IMG/VR virus record: IMGVR_UViG_3300030328_002122
Coordinates: 366 to 64,365 of that record
DNA length: 64,000 nucleotides
Strand: one strand, 5' to 3'
Source: a virus
The position numbers and the translations under genes are program-made. The number at the start of each line of letters is the position of its first letter. The first letter of the stretch is position 1. Below are positions 3,159-56,158 of the stretch, one piece after another. The notes beneath the pieces were generated by a model that was not told where the DNA came from, searched no databases, and worked only from the letters and a program-made list of their open reading frames with translations.

Positions 3159-6026
3159 ATGTCAGGCTGTCCTAGAACATCTAAATTAGAAAGTAAATTA
3201 TCTCCTCATATAGAGGAGCAATTGCCAGAGTTTGTTCGTACAGAACATCCTTTGTTTGCAACTTTCGTTAAACACTACTATCAATTTTTAGAAGCTGGTT
3301 GTTTAACATTAGGTGGTTCTAATGATTATCTTATACAGGAAACTTTAACAAGCAATCTTATTGTTGATAACAATGATGAAAAGATTGTTCTTGAAAGTTC
3401 TGTAGGTAAGTTTCAAGTCGGTGAAACTATTCGTGGAGAAAAAAGTAAATATACTGCAACAATACTGGTAGATGATTATGACTCTACTGGTAAACTTTAT
3501 ATTAGTTCCCAACAAAAATTTAAAAAAGGTGAAAATGTAGTTGGATTAACCTCTGGTGCAAAAGCTTCTATTACTGATTATCAAGGTAATCCTATACAAA
3601 ACATACAACAATTATTAGCGTATGCAGATATTGATAATACTACTTTTACTTTCTTTGATAAATTTAAAGCATCATTTTTAGAGTCTTTGCCTGAGTCTAT
3701 TACAGATGATATTAATATAAGAAATTTAATTAAGAGTGTAAAGGACTTATACGAAGCAAGAGGTACAGAAGAAGGACATAGATTATTCTTTAGAATATTG
3801 TTTGACCAAGAATCCAGTTTACTATATCCAAGAGATAATATGATGAAACTTTCAGATGGTCAATGGGGCACTGACTATCTTATGAGAGTTAGAGAAGATG
3901 GTAATTCAGACTTTTCACAACTGGTGGGAAAAACTATTACTGGTGTATCTACTGGTGCAAAGGCTGTTGTTCAAGGTGTTACCAAATTTATATATGGTGC
4001 AGATGTTATTGCAGAATTAAATTTAGATCGTGGTACAATTATAGGAACTTTTGATTCTGGTTCTGCTGATTTAATGTTAATGGAAAGTGGTGAGAATTTA
4101 GTTACTGAAGGTGAAGTAGGGGAAAAGATTCGTGAAGAAGGATCGCTTGGAGAATTAGTTACTGGCATCTCTAATACTTTAGACCTTGAAATTACTGCAA
4201 GAGTTATTGGTATTACAACTGGTGTTAATCTTTCCAATAGAGGACAGTACTATAGAGTTAATGATACTATTCATTTTTCTGTAGATCAAGATGTTTCGGT
4301 TGGAGTTAAGGGAGAAGTACGAAGTATTGGAACTGGTGGCGTAACTGGTGTGTATGTTGAAAATGGTGGTACTGGATATACCATGTCTGACGTTGTTACC
4401 TTTGATAATTCTAATACAAATGGTGTCGGTGCAAATGCAAAGATAACTGCACTTGGTGGTTACTTATCTATGGAAGGTATTACTTATCCAGACAATATAG
4501 TTTTGGAAGGATCTGAATCTCATAATAAGTTAATAATTACAGATACCGATAATGAAGTTTATGAGTTACTTCAAGAACAACAACTAGGAGATAATGATAA
4601 TTTTCTTTTAGAAAATGGCCATAATATTATTTTAGAAACTGCTACATTTGATCCGCCTGTTCTTATATTAGAAAACGATAATGGTCTTATTTTAGAAGAT
4701 GGTGAAGATATACTTTTAGAAAGCTCACCTCTTACAAATACAATAGGTAGTTCTATTAGAAATATTTACGTTACAGGATATGGTAATTCTTATACAAAGT
4801 TACCATCTGTTTCGATAACATCTTCTACAGGTTCTAATGCATCTGTGCTTGCAACAACTACAGATGGTGTTGGAAGAATATTAGAAATATTATTTAAAGA
4901 TTATGGTGTAGGGTATGTTCGTCCGCCTACTGTAACTTTTAATAAAAACGTAATTGTTAAAAATGTTACAGGATCATTTGCAAAAGGTGATGCAATAACA
5001 TCTTTTGATGGTAGTATCGTATCGTATGATAGTGCAACACAAATATTAGAAATACAATCTGAACTAGAACATTTTACCGAAGGTGATCCTATAACCACAT
5101 CTAGTGCAAATGCAACTGCTCACCAATGTATTCATGCAGAAGCATCTGCAACCAATGGTGCAATCGTAGTTTCTAATGGAGATTTTAGTGGACTAAGAGG
5201 TCAACTCAACGAAGAGCAAATGAAAATCCAAGATTCTAAATTTTATCAAGATTATTCTTATGTTGTAAAAATAGGTGAATCTATTAATACTTGGAGAGAT
5301 AGTATTAAAAGATCAGTTCACCCTGCTGGGTGGAATGTATTTGGTGAAGTATCTATTGCAACAACTCTTGCACAGGCACAGATTCATTCTATGAAGATAC
5401 GAAATCCAGCCGCTGGTGATGTTATTGATTTTACTTCCGATACTACAACATACTCACCAGAACTTGCATCTACATTAAGAACATTATTTTCTGCAAGGTT
5501 TAGAAGAAGGTTAGGTACTGCTGATGATGGTACAACATTAAATACAACTAATCCAATGAGTGGTACAGAATTTGAAGATATATGGGCAACAAACTCTGCA
5601 AATAATAAACTTGATCTTGATAATAAACGTGAAAGAACTGCTAGTAGTTCTTATAAATTTGAGATCGCAGCTGGTGGTAGTCGGGCTGTAGGTCAATTTA
5701 GTCCTACGTTAGATCTTCTTCCTAAGTATGCATTTTCACAACCACCAACTGGAACAGGAATTGCAATTCCACACTATCCAGGCTTAGTTCGTACTGTAAG
5801 ACTTGATGATACAAATAAAAGTGCATATTATACTGTTGGGCAGTTTGCACAGTTTAGGATTAATGAAGTAAGTGATGCAAATGGAAACATACCAGAAACT
5901 GCAAAAAGTGTTAAAACAAATGTTCAACCACCAGGCGAAATTATTTTAATAAGAACTGGTTCAGTAACATTTGATAGTACATCTACTACTGTGGATGATA
6001 CTAGTAGAACATTTGATGATTTGTAA
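3159..6026 (+). CDS. Probable baseplate wedge protein (gene 7 position)
   Basis: 955 residues directly after gene 6. T4 gp7, the large wedge initiator, is 1032 aa and occupies this place, and marine T4-like phages have a protein of this kind here. The N terminus ('LPEFVRTEHPLFATFVKHYY') and the region around residue 200 ('DLYEARGTEEGHRLFFRILF') are well-conserved-looking structural segments. Residues about 465-525 carry repeated short beta units of the type 'LLENG..IILE' and 'LILEDGEDILLES'. Two 'GRGQYY/GGTGYT' style beta hairpins lie near residues 360-410. I infer the gp7 role from position and size; no single motif proves it. Confidence 0.65.
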   Translation: MSGCPRTSKLESKLSPHIEEQLPEFVRTEHPLFATFVKHYYQFLEAGCLTLGGSNDYLIQETLTSNLIVDNNDEKIVLESSVGKFQVGETIRGEKSKYTATILVDDYDSTGKLYISSQQKFKKGENVVGLTSGAKASITDYQGNPIQNIQQLLAYADIDNTTFTFFDKFKASFLESLPESITDDINIRNLIKSVKDLYEARGTEEGHRLFFRILFDQESSLLYPRDNMMKLSDGQWGTDYLMRVREDGNSDFSQLVGKTITGVSTGAKAVVQGVTKFIYGADVIAELNLDRGTIIGTFDSGSADLMLMESGENLVTEGEVGEKIREEGSLGELVTGISNTLDLEITARVIGITTGVNLSNRGQYYRVNDTIHFSVDQDVSVGVKGEVRSIGTGGVTGVYVENGGTGYTMSDVVTFDNSNTNGVGANAKITALGGYLSMEGITYPDNIVLEGSESHNKLIITDTDNEVYELLQEQQLGDNDNFLLENGHNIILETATFDPPVLILENDNGLILEDGEDILLESSPLTNTIGSSIRNIYVTGYGNSYTKLPSVSITSSTGSNASVLATTTDGVGRILEILFKDYGVGYVRPPTVTFNKNVIVKNVTGSFAKGDAITSFDGSIVSYDSATQILEIQSELEHFTEGDPITTSSANATAHQCIHAEASATNGAIVVSNGDFSGLRGQLNEEQMKIQDSKFYQDYSYVVKIGESINTWRDSIKRSVHPAGWNVFGEVSIATTLAQAQIHSMKIRNPAAGDVIDFTSDTTTYSPELASTLRTLFSARFRRRLGTADDGTTLNTTNPMSGTEFEDIWATNSANNKLDLDNKRERTASSSYKFEIAAGGSRAVGQFSPTLDLLPKYAFSQPPTGTGIAIPHYPGLVRTVRLDDTNKSAYYTVGQFAQFRINEVSDANGNIPETAKSVKTNVQPPGEIILIRTGSVTFDSTSTTVDDTSRTFDDL

Positions 6027-54262: not shown

Positions 54263-54287
54263 GGGGGATTTTTATCCCCCTTTTTTT
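54263..54287 (+). terminator. Intrinsic terminator after gene 23
   Basis: A GGGGGA stem (54263-54268) pairs perfectly with TCCCCC (54275-54280) across a six-base loop, followed by seven Ts (54281-54287). It lies 33 bases after the gene 23 stop and closes the late head operon. Confidence 0.92.
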
Positions 54288-54304: not shown

Positions 54305-55123
54305 ATGACACAACTTATATCACCTAAAAAATTTACACACGCAGTTGGCCTTTTGAGGTCATTTTTTTTATCTAAAGGTTTTGAAGAAGTACACACACAA
54401 AACCGACTATCAATACTAGCGGCTTGCGAAGATCCAGAAAATGTCGCAACGTATAATTACATGGGAAACATATGGCCCCTGCCACAAACTGGACAAATGT
54501 GGTTAGAACATGAACTATTAACACGCCCCTCTAGTAAGGGGTTTTTTTGTGTTTCCACTAGCTATAGACAAGAACCAAATGCAATTCCTGGCAGACATGA
54601 AACAATATTTCCAATGTTTGAGTTTGAGATGCCTGGCGATATTAATGATCTCAAAAATATGGAAATAGAATTATGTAAATACATGGGATTTCCAGAATTA
54701 GAGATACAGACATACAATGAATGGAGTGACCAGTTTAATGTAAAAGAACTGGAAAACGAACACGAAGAAATTATTGATTGGGGTATGATTACAAGTTTTC
54801 CAGAGTTTACGTCACCATTTTGGAATATGTCAAGATATGAAGATGGAGTTACCAGTAAAAAGATTGATGTAATTCTAAATGGTATGGAAACAATAGGTTC
54901 TGCTGAAAGAAGTACAGACAAAGATCAAATGAAAAATACATTTGAAACAATATCAAATGGTGAGTATGCAGAATTATTATACAAACTATTTGGAAAAGAA
55001 AGAGTACAAAAAGAGTTAGATGAATTTTTGAAATATGATTTCTTCCCAAGAGTTGGGGGTGGAATTGGTATGACAAGAATGATCTCTGCGTTAGATAGAT
55101 TAGAAATGGGATTAGCGGCATGA
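54305..55123 (+). CDS. Orphan class II aminoacyl-tRNA synthetase-like catalytic core (Asp/AsnRS type)
   Basis: 272 residues. Motif 2 is visible as 'TSYRQEPNAIPGRHETIFPM' (R88, E90, R97-H98), then FEFEM. 'KIDVILNGMETIGSAERS' (186-203) corresponds to the D..LNG.EI..GS.R segment of Asp/AsnRS, and motif 3 is GGGIGMTRM (251-259, with Arg258). The N-terminal OB-fold anticodon-binding domain of real AspRS/AsnRS is absent. The product may be an amino-acid-activating enzyme like the AsnA family or archaeal AsnRS paralogues, or an unusual tRNA ligase. It lies between two terminator-like hairpins and an odd tRNA. ATP-binding arginines are kept, so activity is plausible; substrate unknown. Confidence 0.8.
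   Translation: MTQLISPKKFTHAVGLLRSFFLSKGFEEVHTQNRLSILAACEDPENVATYNYMGNIWPLPQTGQMWLEHELLTRPSSKGFFCVSTSYRQEPNAIPGRHETIFPMFEFEMPGDINDLKNMEIELCKYMGFPELEIQTYNEWSDQFNVKELENEHEEIIDWGMITSFPEFTSPFWNMSRYEDGVTSKKIDVILNGMETIGSAERSTDKDQMKNTFETISNGEYAELLYKLFGKERVQKELDEFLKYDFFPRVGGGIGMTRMISALDRLEMGLAA
54526..54548 (+). terminator. Terminator-like hairpin inside the synthetase-like gene
   Basis: CCCCT (54526-54530) pairs with AGGGG (54537-54541) round a six-base loop, followed by seven Ts (54542-54548). It is about 220 bases into the coding region (codons ~74-82). It may cause premature termination or attenuation, or be a coincidence of the Arg-Pro-Ser-Ser-Lys-Gly-Phe-Phe codons. Confidence 0.45.
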
Positions 55124-55188
55124 ACAATGAAGAATACAAAAAATATGTAAACCTATTGTGTAAGATATGGAACATTAAAAATGAGTAA
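55120..55188 (+). CDS. Possible 22-residue micro-ORF
   Basis: ATG 55120 overlaps the synthetase-like stop as ATGA, and the 22-codon frame (MNNEEYKKYVNLLCKIWNIK, then NE) ends over the ATG of the next gene. The next gene has no convincing ribosome site, so this frame could carry ribosomes across by coupling. No known family; may be fortuitous. Confidence 0.25.
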   Translation: MNNEEYKKYVNLLCKIWNIKNE

Positions 55189-55423
55189 TGAAGAAAATCA
55201 AATTGAAGATTTTAAAGATCAAGATAAAGCTGCTTTAAGAAGACAACTTGCTCAACTTAGAATGGCAAGATATACATTAGTTGCTATGGGAGTATTTACT
55301 TTTTCAATGTTTTTCGTATCAGTTGAACGAGTTAATGCTTTATCCGATATTTCAAATTTATTTTATCTCTCTGGTGCTGGAATTGTTGGAGCTTATATGG
55401 GATTTAATTCAAAGAGGTTTTAA
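55181..55423 (+). CDS. Small two-helix membrane protein
   Basis: 80 residues. A charged N terminus (1-30, 'ENQIEDFKDQDKAALRRQLA') is followed by a membrane segment ~31-47 (YTLVAMGVFTFSMFFVS) and a second ~58-75 (ISNLFYLSGAGIVGAYMGF). The end is a short basic KRF. Two short helices and this size fit a holin or a small membrane modulator, but nothing proves lysis function. It overlaps the micro-ORF, has a weak ribosome site, and lies six bases before the tRNA, so transcript processing at the tRNA would define its 3' end. Confidence 0.6.
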   Translation: MSNEENQIEDFKDQDKAALRRQLAQLRMARYTLVAMGVFTFSMFFVSVERVNALSDISNLFYLSGAGIVGAYMGFNSKRF

Positions 55424-55428
55424 AATAG

Positions 55429-55517
55429 TTTGAGGTGGTGGAATTGGTAGACACGCACAACTGTTTATTGTGTGCAAATATTTTTGCGTGAAGGTTCGAG
55501 CCCTTCCCTCAAAGCCA
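55429..55517 (+). tRNA. Class II tRNA with GTT anticodon (Leu-like body)
   Basis: 89-base cloverleaf. Acceptor stem 55429-55435 (TTTGAGG) pairs with 55507-55513 (CCTCAAA). D-arm stem GTG/CAC encloses GAATTGGTAGA. Anticodon stem CACAA (55456-55460) / TTGTG (55468-55472) has loop CTGTTTA, so anticodon GTT at 55463-55465. A 17-base variable arm has stem GCAAA/TTTGC. T-arm GAAGG / TTCGAGC / CCTTC. G73 and an encoded CCA follow. The body is Leu-like class II, yet the anticodon and G73 are Asn-type, and U1-A72 is also present. Base 37 is U rather than the usual purine. Amino acid identity is uncertain (Asn, Ser or Leu). Confidence 0.85.
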
Positions 55518-55537: not shown

Positions 55538-55555
55538 CTTGTGAAGGAGATTACT

Positions 55556-56158
55556 ATGGCAGTTAATTTTAACTCTTTAAACAGACAACCTAGTACTTTA
55601 GATTATACACACCCAACACAGTTTAGGTTTGATATTCTAAAATTGCCTAATGTTGAATACACGATAACGTCTGCAAATGTTCCAGGCATTAGTATGTCTG
55701 GAGATGCAATAATGAATACTAGATTCAAAGGTGTTCCATTTATGGGAGATACTCTCATTTACGAAACACTTAATGTAACTTTTATAGTTCAAGAAGATTT
55801 AGCAAACTATCGTGAATTGCATGATTGGATAACTGGTATAGGATTTCCAAAAGACAACGAACAGTTTGACAGTGCTTTAAGAAACGAAATACAAACAAAG
55901 CCTGGTGCATTACCAGTAATTCCTAAACAGACTTCTAATGTAAGAAATGCACCAGTTTTAAATCCATCTGTATTGACAAGTGATGCAACAATGCATATAC
56001 TGTCTAATAAAAACAATCCGAAGATCAGAGTTAATTTTAGAGGACTTTATCCATCATCATTGTCTGGTGTAACATATAATACACAAGATTCAACTGGAGA
56101 AGGAATAACTGCTGATGTTCAGTTTCAATTTGATTTGTATGAGTTTCAAGTATTATAA
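55556..56158 (+). CDS. Tail completion/tube-like protein (gene 3 position)
   Basis: 200 residues from ATG 55556; the GTG at 55541 would place the GAAGGAG ribosome site inside the gene, so I reject it. The sequence 'YTHPTQFRFDILKLPNVEYT' followed by 'ITSANVPGISMSGDAIMNTR' and ending 'TADVQFQFDLYEFQVL' is reminiscent of tube-fold proteins (gp19/gp3 type). It lies between gene 23 and uvsY, where marine T4-like phages carry gene 3, the tube-completion factor. Identity with gp3 is inferred from position and fold-like pattern. It has its own late promoter. Confidence 0.55.
   Translation: MAVNFNSLNRQPSTLDYTHPTQFRFDILKLPNVEYTITSANVPGISMSGDAIMNTRFKGVPFMGDTLIYETLNVTFIVQEDLANYRELHDWITGIGFPKDNEQFDSALRNEIQTKPGALPVIPKQTSNVRNAPVLNPSVLTSDATMHILSNKNNPKIRVNFRGLYPSSLSGVTYNTQDSTGEGITADVQFQFDLYEFQVL

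Follow-up and report, generated by a model that had tools for sequence, protein, structure and literature searches.

A leucine-type class II tRNA with asparagine identity elements and its AsnRS-like ligase partner in marine phages

Which amino acid, if any, is carried by a tRNA whose body is of the leucine type and whose anticodon is that of asparagine? The question is raised by a T4-like marine myophage of which we analysed a stretch of 64,000 nucleotides (the window; positions 366-64365 in a virus record of 145,194 bases). ARAGORN, whose use had been proposed in the preliminary description of this DNA, found a single tRNA in the window and called it tRNA-Asn with anticodon gtt at exactly 55429-55517 on the plus strand; an Rfam scan at the gathering threshold returned zero matches for it. 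The tRNA is composed as follows.

55429-55517, plus strand: class II tRNA with anticodon GUU, U1-A72, G73, U37 and an encoded CCA, based on ARAGORN, covariation and sister contigs
55463-55465, plus strand: anticodon GUU, within the loop CTGTTTA at 55461-55467, with U37 at 55466
55473-55489, plus strand: long variable arm, T-GCAAA-TATT-TTTGC-GT

The acceptor stem reads TTTGAGG/CCTCAAA and thus gives U1-A72, G73 is at 55514 and CCA is encoded at 55515-55517. With seven acceptor pairs and five pairs in the T stem (T-arm GAAGG-TTCGAGC-CCTTC) the molecule has a 7/5 branch; the anticodon arm is CACAA-CTGTTTA-TTGTG, and the D-arm, GGTGGAATTGGTAGACAC, is Leu-like. Among cellular tRNAs the best covariance-model matches are tRNA-Leu, confirming the Leu-type body. 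The class II body, Leu-like D-arm, GTT, G73, U1-A72 and U37 had all been noted beforehand and hold on reading the sequence and by ARAGORN, and the conflict of tRNA identity rules pointed out on their account is real. An alternative fold giving an anticodon for Leu or Ser was looked for and none was found, while an ochre-suppressor reading with a TTA anticodon was rejected as being without any supporting stem.

In a set of 37 distinct homologue sequences compared with 500 shuffles, pairing cells amount to 98.2% versus 74.2% when shuffled, two-sided changes to 204 versus 50, and covariation to 0.672 versus 0.198, a value which 0 of the 500 shuffles reach. The fold of this class II tRNA-Asn is not due to chance and the tRNA is real. 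Covariation extends to all five pairs of the anticodon stem; this settles the register of the loop and rules out other anticodon registers. Across 80 homologous phage loci the anticodon GTT is found in 80/80, as is the combination of U1-A72 with G73; CCA is encoded in 68 and the variable region spans 6-44 nt (13-44 nt in 79 of the 80). Position 37 is T in 70, A in 9 and C in 1 of these homologues, and position 33 is T in 71, C in 8 and G in 1, whereas U33 and a purine at 37 occur in 81/81 other distinct tRNAs of the phage loci. The pyrimidine at 37, already singled out as unusual, is therefore a genuine anomaly of the family. In nine sister contigs the tRNA is near-identical, with two substitutions only, both in loops. 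A degenerate tRNA-Leu is ruled out by the conservation in sister contigs and homologues together with the compensatory covariation; the related phages, in which a normal anticodon would have marked the copy as degenerate, keep GTT throughout.

Two loci depart from the family pattern. At L043:6242-6316 the long arm is lost, leaving a 6-nt variable region and a class I shape, while the D-arm, GTT, G73, U1-A72 and the ligase are kept; the V arm is therefore probably not the recognition element. In L118 an acceptor-stem remnant (TCCGGGG T CCCCCGGAGCCA) lies about 35 nt past position 5828 beside an intact ligase, and the interior of that tRNA may have been deleted or misassembled.

The tRNA of the window does not stand alone, and its surroundings contain the following features.

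54263-54287, plus strand: strong terminator-like GC hairpin with a T run, read from sequence, separating the major capsid gene (gp23) from the ligase
54305-55123, plus strand: class II aminoacyl-tRNA-synthetase-like ligase of 272 aa, catalytic core only, with QTGQMWLE and the motif-2 sequence SYRxE
55181-55423, plus strand: 80-aa ORF, probably a membrane protein, between ligase and tRNA in the window phage only
55530-55537, plus strand: TATAAATA, T4-late-promoter-like by pattern only, upstream of a tail-tube-like gene at 55541-56158

The hairpin suggests that the ligase-tRNA cassette may be under separate control. No homologue of the 80-aa ORF was found in the fetched loci, and in the sister contigs lacking this insert the tRNA begins 4 nt past the ligase stop.

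The ligase matches PF00152 (class II D/K/N) with 52.9 bits against a cut-off of 25; the match covers residues 12-263, that is the catalytic domain alone, in which motifs 2 and 3 of class II synthetases are present by alignment, and the N-terminal anticodon-binding domain of AsnRS is absent. It scores below the cut-offs of both TIGR00457 (AsnRS, 18.4 versus 342.6 bits) and the PRK06462-type asparagine synthetase A (21.9 versus 389 bits). When the family profile was compared with the PDB, AsnRS came out on top (5.8e-12), AspRS next and archaeal asparagine synthetase weakly (0.0023), and the AlphaFold (AF2) model, with a pLDDT of 91.6, has AsnRS 1x54 as its best fold match. E68 is invariant and aligns with the AsnRS signature QSSQLYLE as opposed to the Lys of AspRS (QSPQLYK), so that the pocket signature QTGQMWLE plus SYRxE is AsnRS-like and not AspRS-like. 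A dN of 0.030 and a dS of 0.21 relative to the sister genes indicate purifying selection.

How strictly the two genes go together was examined in both directions. An IMG/VR protein scan yielded at least 598 ligase relatives, of which 80 were kept and combined with P-SSM7, P-SSM2, P-SSM5, two huge phages and the window into 86 loci. A complete tRNA lies downstream of the ligase in 80 of the 83 evaluable phage loci, in 77 of them at 4-11 nt; the other 3 of the 86 end at a contig edge before the tRNA site, and among the 86 the ligases of L076 and of the two huge phages have no tRNA behind them. For the opposite direction we searched with a DNA pattern restricted to the D and anticodon arms, independently of the ligase, which recovered 97 complete tRNAs: a ligase is found upstream in 91/91 evaluable cases, on the same strand and at 8-232 nt, and the remaining 6 tRNAs lie no more than 132 nt from the end of a contig. 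U1-A72 and G73 are present in 97/97, while the count of GTT rests on the forward test because the reverse pattern itself fixes the anticodon. Phage or phage-like contigs that have the ligase and no such tRNA nearby are L033 and L034 (huge phages LR756501 and LR756508), L076, L115, L116, L367 and L368. In a quick maximum-likelihood tree the tRNA-paired phage ligases form one supported clade apart from the stand-alone bacterial proteins, with the exceptions of L120, a paired contig in an outlying position, and L118, which carries the tRNA remnant and falls beside two unpaired contigs.

The class II tRNA-Asn and the adjacent AsnRS-like ligase are thus a two-part cassette in hundreds of marine phages, and as far as the contigs allow checking, the tRNA never occurs without the ligase. 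The sequences show that a class II body of the Leu type keeps the complete Asn identity set (GUU, G73, U1-A72), and very likely the two form a partnership with Asn identity. The preliminary description had suggested testing the neighbouring synthetase core, an apt proposal now that this core is seen as a near-obligate partner of the tRNA. Its overall interpretation stands for the features and their conflict but not for Ser or Leu mis-decoding, discussed below, and it had missed both the ligase partnership and the tie to pyrimidine genes. The pairing, together with its place among pyrimidine genes in some phages, suggests that tRNA and enzyme are private partners. No description of the pair, of the class II Asn body or of its pyrimidine link was found in the literature searched, subscription journals lying outside its coverage.

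The pair is missing from the closest isolates and present in others. UvsW of the window phage is 76% identical to that of Melnitz, an OM43 phage, and about 55-60% identical to those of the pelagiphages Mosig and HTVC008M; in Melnitz, the nearest isolate, as well as in Mosig and HTVC008M, tRNA and ligase are absent at the corresponding place, and at another site both Melnitz and Mosig carry a tRNA-Leu(taa) of the ordinary kind. In the Prochlorococcus phages P-SSM2, P-SSM5 and P-SSM7, the 'tRNA ligase' (T4-GC 194) is the same ligase (72-74% identity) and is directly followed by the same class II GTT tRNA, the tRNA-Asn being annotated separately from it; in the literature T4-GC 194 has no more than an entry in a gene table (PMC3037559). 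Huge phages are known to encode tRNAs and tRNA synthetases (PMC7162821), and two of them hold the same ligase, but no dedicated adjacent tRNA pair was found in them.

Other known systems resemble the pair only in part. Bacterial tRNA-Asn shares GUU, G73 and U1-A72, and the E. coli gene has identical ends and the loop CTGTTAA, but it is class I with A37, whereas the phage tRNA has a class II V arm, a Leu-type D-arm and U37. Bacterial tRNA-Leu shares the topology of D-arm and V-arm, the phage tRNA having GTT and G73 in place of a Leu anticodon and A73. Nev-tRNAs and allo-tRNAs are V-arm tRNAs with unexpected anticodons (PMC4300185, PMC7590224); in contrast to the phage tRNA, however, nev-tRNAs are nematode molecules charged with Leu, and allo-tRNAs have an acceptor branch of 8/4 or 9/3 instead of 7/5. 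On the protein side, AsnRS and archaeal asparagine synthetase (AS-AR) have the class IIb catalytic fold and motifs in common with the ligase, and AS-AR likewise lacks an anticodon domain (3rex and 3p8t matches). Both differ from the phage ligase, which lies far below the NCBIfam cut-offs and is tied to a tRNA in phages or to pyr genes in bacteria.

We then considered how the tRNA might be read and charged. Asn makes up 7.1% of the window codons. At window AAC/AAT codons the residue in Melnitz is Asn in 60%/53% and Ser in 4%/7%, and across the phages without the pair window AAC sites align with Asn in 50-60% and Ser in 4-12%, Leu not being among the eight commonest residues. Because AAY sites align with Asn in relatives, AAY means Asn in the window phage; recoding of AAC to Ser or Leu is not supported, and the earlier suggestion that either is inserted there is unlikely. 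In bacteria without AsnRS, Asn is made on the tRNA. Among 41 genomes of Methylophilaceae, which may include hosts of the window phage, AsnRS was found in 0 and AsnB in 6; the Caulobacter and Synechococcus controls gave no AsnB either. Bacterial tRNA-Asn identity consists of the anticodon and G73 for the non-discriminating AspRS and of U1-A72 for the amidotransferase (PMC9976931), and the conserved elements of the phage tRNA are exactly the identity set of this route.

The ligase family, as judged from gene context, has a link to pyrimidine synthesis. In L059-L061, L066, L067 and L077 the gene immediately upstream of the ligase encodes a short PyrD-like protein resembling dihydroorotate dehydrogenase (PF01180). 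The window phage encodes such a protein too, beyond the limits of the window, at G000:C1:136585-137289 (L025:12220-12924). In L398:1393-3769 and L399:1106-3360, ligase, tRNA, PyrF (OMP decarboxylase, PF00215) and PyrD-like stand in a row, with ThyX just upstream of the ligase in L398; in L367/L368 PyrD-like directly follows the ligase and the tRNA is not within reach. P-SSM2, P-SSM5 and P-SSM7 have ligase and tRNA and no detectable PyrD-like gene. An IMG/VR scan for PyrD-like gave 44 loci, of which 12 have the ligase within 8 kb (10 of these also with the tRNA pattern), so that PyrD-like is not always accompanied by the ligase; among 50,697 phage records it matched one huge phage only (31%).

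Bacterial relatives were collected by a scan of GTDB genomes (125 found, 80 kept). These stand-alone proteins are 53-62% identical to the phage ligase with nearly identical active-site blocks, and evident phage contigs aside, none of the 80 has a class II GTT tRNA near it. A covariance-model search of 12 ligase-bearing bacteria also gave no class II GTT tRNA, the best-scoring loci checked being tRNA-Leu (one tRNA-Ser). Of about 72 bacterial loci, 22 have the ligase no more than a few kb away from pyrD, pyrE or pyrF, and these 22 come from Bacteroidota, Pseudomonadota, Myxococcota and Dependentiae. In the order of Aureispira, 7 of 120 genomes have the ligase, all with pyrD adjoining; 18 of the 120 are without PyrB, and every one of the 7 belongs to these 18 (p=5e-7, kinship ignored). 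Of 12 ligase genomes from many phyla, several being small or incomplete MAGs, PyrB is above the cut-off only in Coatesbacteria. The complete genome of Pasteurella atlantica (L163, NZ_CP074346.1) shows the order pyrD-ligase-pyrF and a normal AsnRS, and both PyrB and PyrC are missing from it above the cut-off. Stand-alone ligases by pyr genes were also observed at L121, L122, L125, L130, L135, L138, L143, L151-L153, L159, L174 and L180, and in genomes G003, G082, G085, G096, G105, G112 and G130.

Co-location with pyr genes and exclusivity with PyrB, by which a PyrB replacer may be recognised, are thus found for the bacterial ligases in the order tested, while Coatesbacteria has both genes. The skeleton of Asn contains every atom of the dihydroorotate ring except C2. 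The bacterial AsnRS-like ligase is a candidate replacement of aspartate transcarbamoylase and dihydroorotase, and no AsnRS-like replacement of PyrB is described in the literature searched, again with subscription journals outside its coverage.

The pairing of tRNA and ligase is firm; aminoacylation of the tRNA, together with the amino acid, the enzyme and the purpose involved, is what we infer here. In our leading model, the tRNA would be the RNA half and the ligase the protein half of a phage cassette in which the ligase uses asparagine in a route to dihydroorotate bypassing PyrB/PyrC. In hosts making Asn only on tRNA, the non-discriminating AspRS and GatCAB would charge the phage tRNA, which would then deliver Asn to the ligase as its dedicated carrier; its decoding of AAC/AAU would be secondary or absent, which would account for U37 and the occasional C33. 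That the tRNA may not be a decoder at all was rightly among the options listed at the outset. We give this mechanism, in which the tRNA brings Asn to a pyrimidine enzyme, a probability of about 0.38. The wider statement, that a largely non-decoding class II tRNA feeds Asn to an AsnRS-derived dihydroorotate maker in marine phages, with the enzyme acting in PyrB-less bacteria without the tRNA, is held slightly more tentatively. The carrier mechanism is preferred as no other model brings together the pyr context, the strict pairing (80/83 and 91/91), the invariant identity set of the host type published for the AspRS/amidotransferase route (PMC9976931) and the relaxed anticodon loop, U37 and C33 being specific to the family. 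The PyrB-exclusive bacterial ligases by pyr genes, with active-site blocks nearly identical to those of the phage ligases, the phage order ligase-tRNA-PyrF-PyrD, the PyrD-like gene of the window phage and host candidates without AsnRS and with few AsnB all point the same way. Several observations weigh against it, however. To our knowledge, Asn-tRNA-dependent pyrimidine synthesis is without precedent, and esterification to tRNA is not chemically required, since the alpha-carboxylate stays free in dihydroorotate. An invariant GUU is expected of a decoder too; the tRNA lies near other tRNAs in P-SSM7, L053 and L060, which fits translation; P-SSM2, P-SSM5 and P-SSM7 lack PyrD-like, and L367/L368 have ligase-PyrD without the tRNA.

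Some of these points favour an orthogonal translation pair, our first working model, which was demoted once the pyr links appeared and stands close behind as a possible though doubtful reading. Here a minimal AsnRS would charge this class II tRNA alone, either with Asn or with Asp that GatCAB then amidates, for decoding AAC/AAU in Asn-rich mRNAs, and the Leu-type body combined with G73 would ward off host LeuRS and SerRS. One-to-one linkage, retention of GUU in 80/80 despite a ligase without an anticodon-binding domain, the AsnRS-type active site and fold, the 7.1% of Asn codons and AAY sites aligning with Asn, the location in tRNA clusters of some phages and the CCA encoded in 68/80 are consistent with it. 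The same active site is nevertheless common to the bacterial pyr-linked homologues, phages have pyr operons, and U37 in 70/80 with C33/G33 in 9/80 contrasts with 0/81 in other phage tRNAs; moreover, the possible hosts without AsnRS are mostly without AsnB, so that free Asn may be scarce. It is unlikely that the tRNA is a supplementary tRNA-Asn charged by the host (AsnRS or non-discriminating AspRS/GatCAB), with loop and body altered against host tRNA nucleases so that AAY would still be decoded, and the ligase a separate metabolic gene travelling in the same mobile cassette. GUU and G73 do transfer bacterial Asn identity (PMC9976931), and anticodon-loop changes have been proposed to let phage tRNAs evade tRNA nucleases (PMC10264068), but the 91/91 retention of the ligase and the class II body would be unaccounted for, and the ligase-less variant, which should be common, was not seen.

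Core-only synthetase paralogues with other jobs exist, such as HisZ, GluQ-RS and AsnA, and U33-G34-U35 is known as the recognition motif for queuosine insertion. By these precedents the tRNA could be a partner but not a substrate of the ligase, either a regulatory or structural RNA or the queuosine-34 aminoacylation target of a GluQ-RS-like core; we consider this quite improbable, as C33 or G33 in 9/80 would break the queuosine motif and the 3' end is kept with G73, and in most members with CCA. A tRNA inserting Ser or Leu at AAC, or a decayed former tRNA-Leu, would fit the class II body and the tRNA-Leu covariance-model matches but is very improbable: GTT in 80/80 and full compensatory covariation exclude decay, G73 is unfavourable for bacterial LeuRS, and AAC sites align with Asn far more often (50-60%) than with Ser (4-12%).

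The usual explanation of phage tRNAs is codon supply or escape from nucleases, and a one-to-one synthetase-like partner, a non-standard loop and pyrimidine operons in some phages demand another explanation, one that is testable with the cultivable phages P-SSM2 and P-SSM7. As a translation pair, the cassette would be a naturally occurring AsnRS-tRNA set of very small size, clearly useful in genetic code work; as a carrier system, it would bring tRNA chemistry into pyrimidine synthesis. Under either model the bacterial relatives point to an unrecognised PyrB replacement. Finally, the rest of the retrieved virus record holds no further tRNA but a two-piece tmRNA, which is permuted and lies at L024:13503-13919 (G000:C1, about 117.9 kb), as in Melnitz and Mosig.
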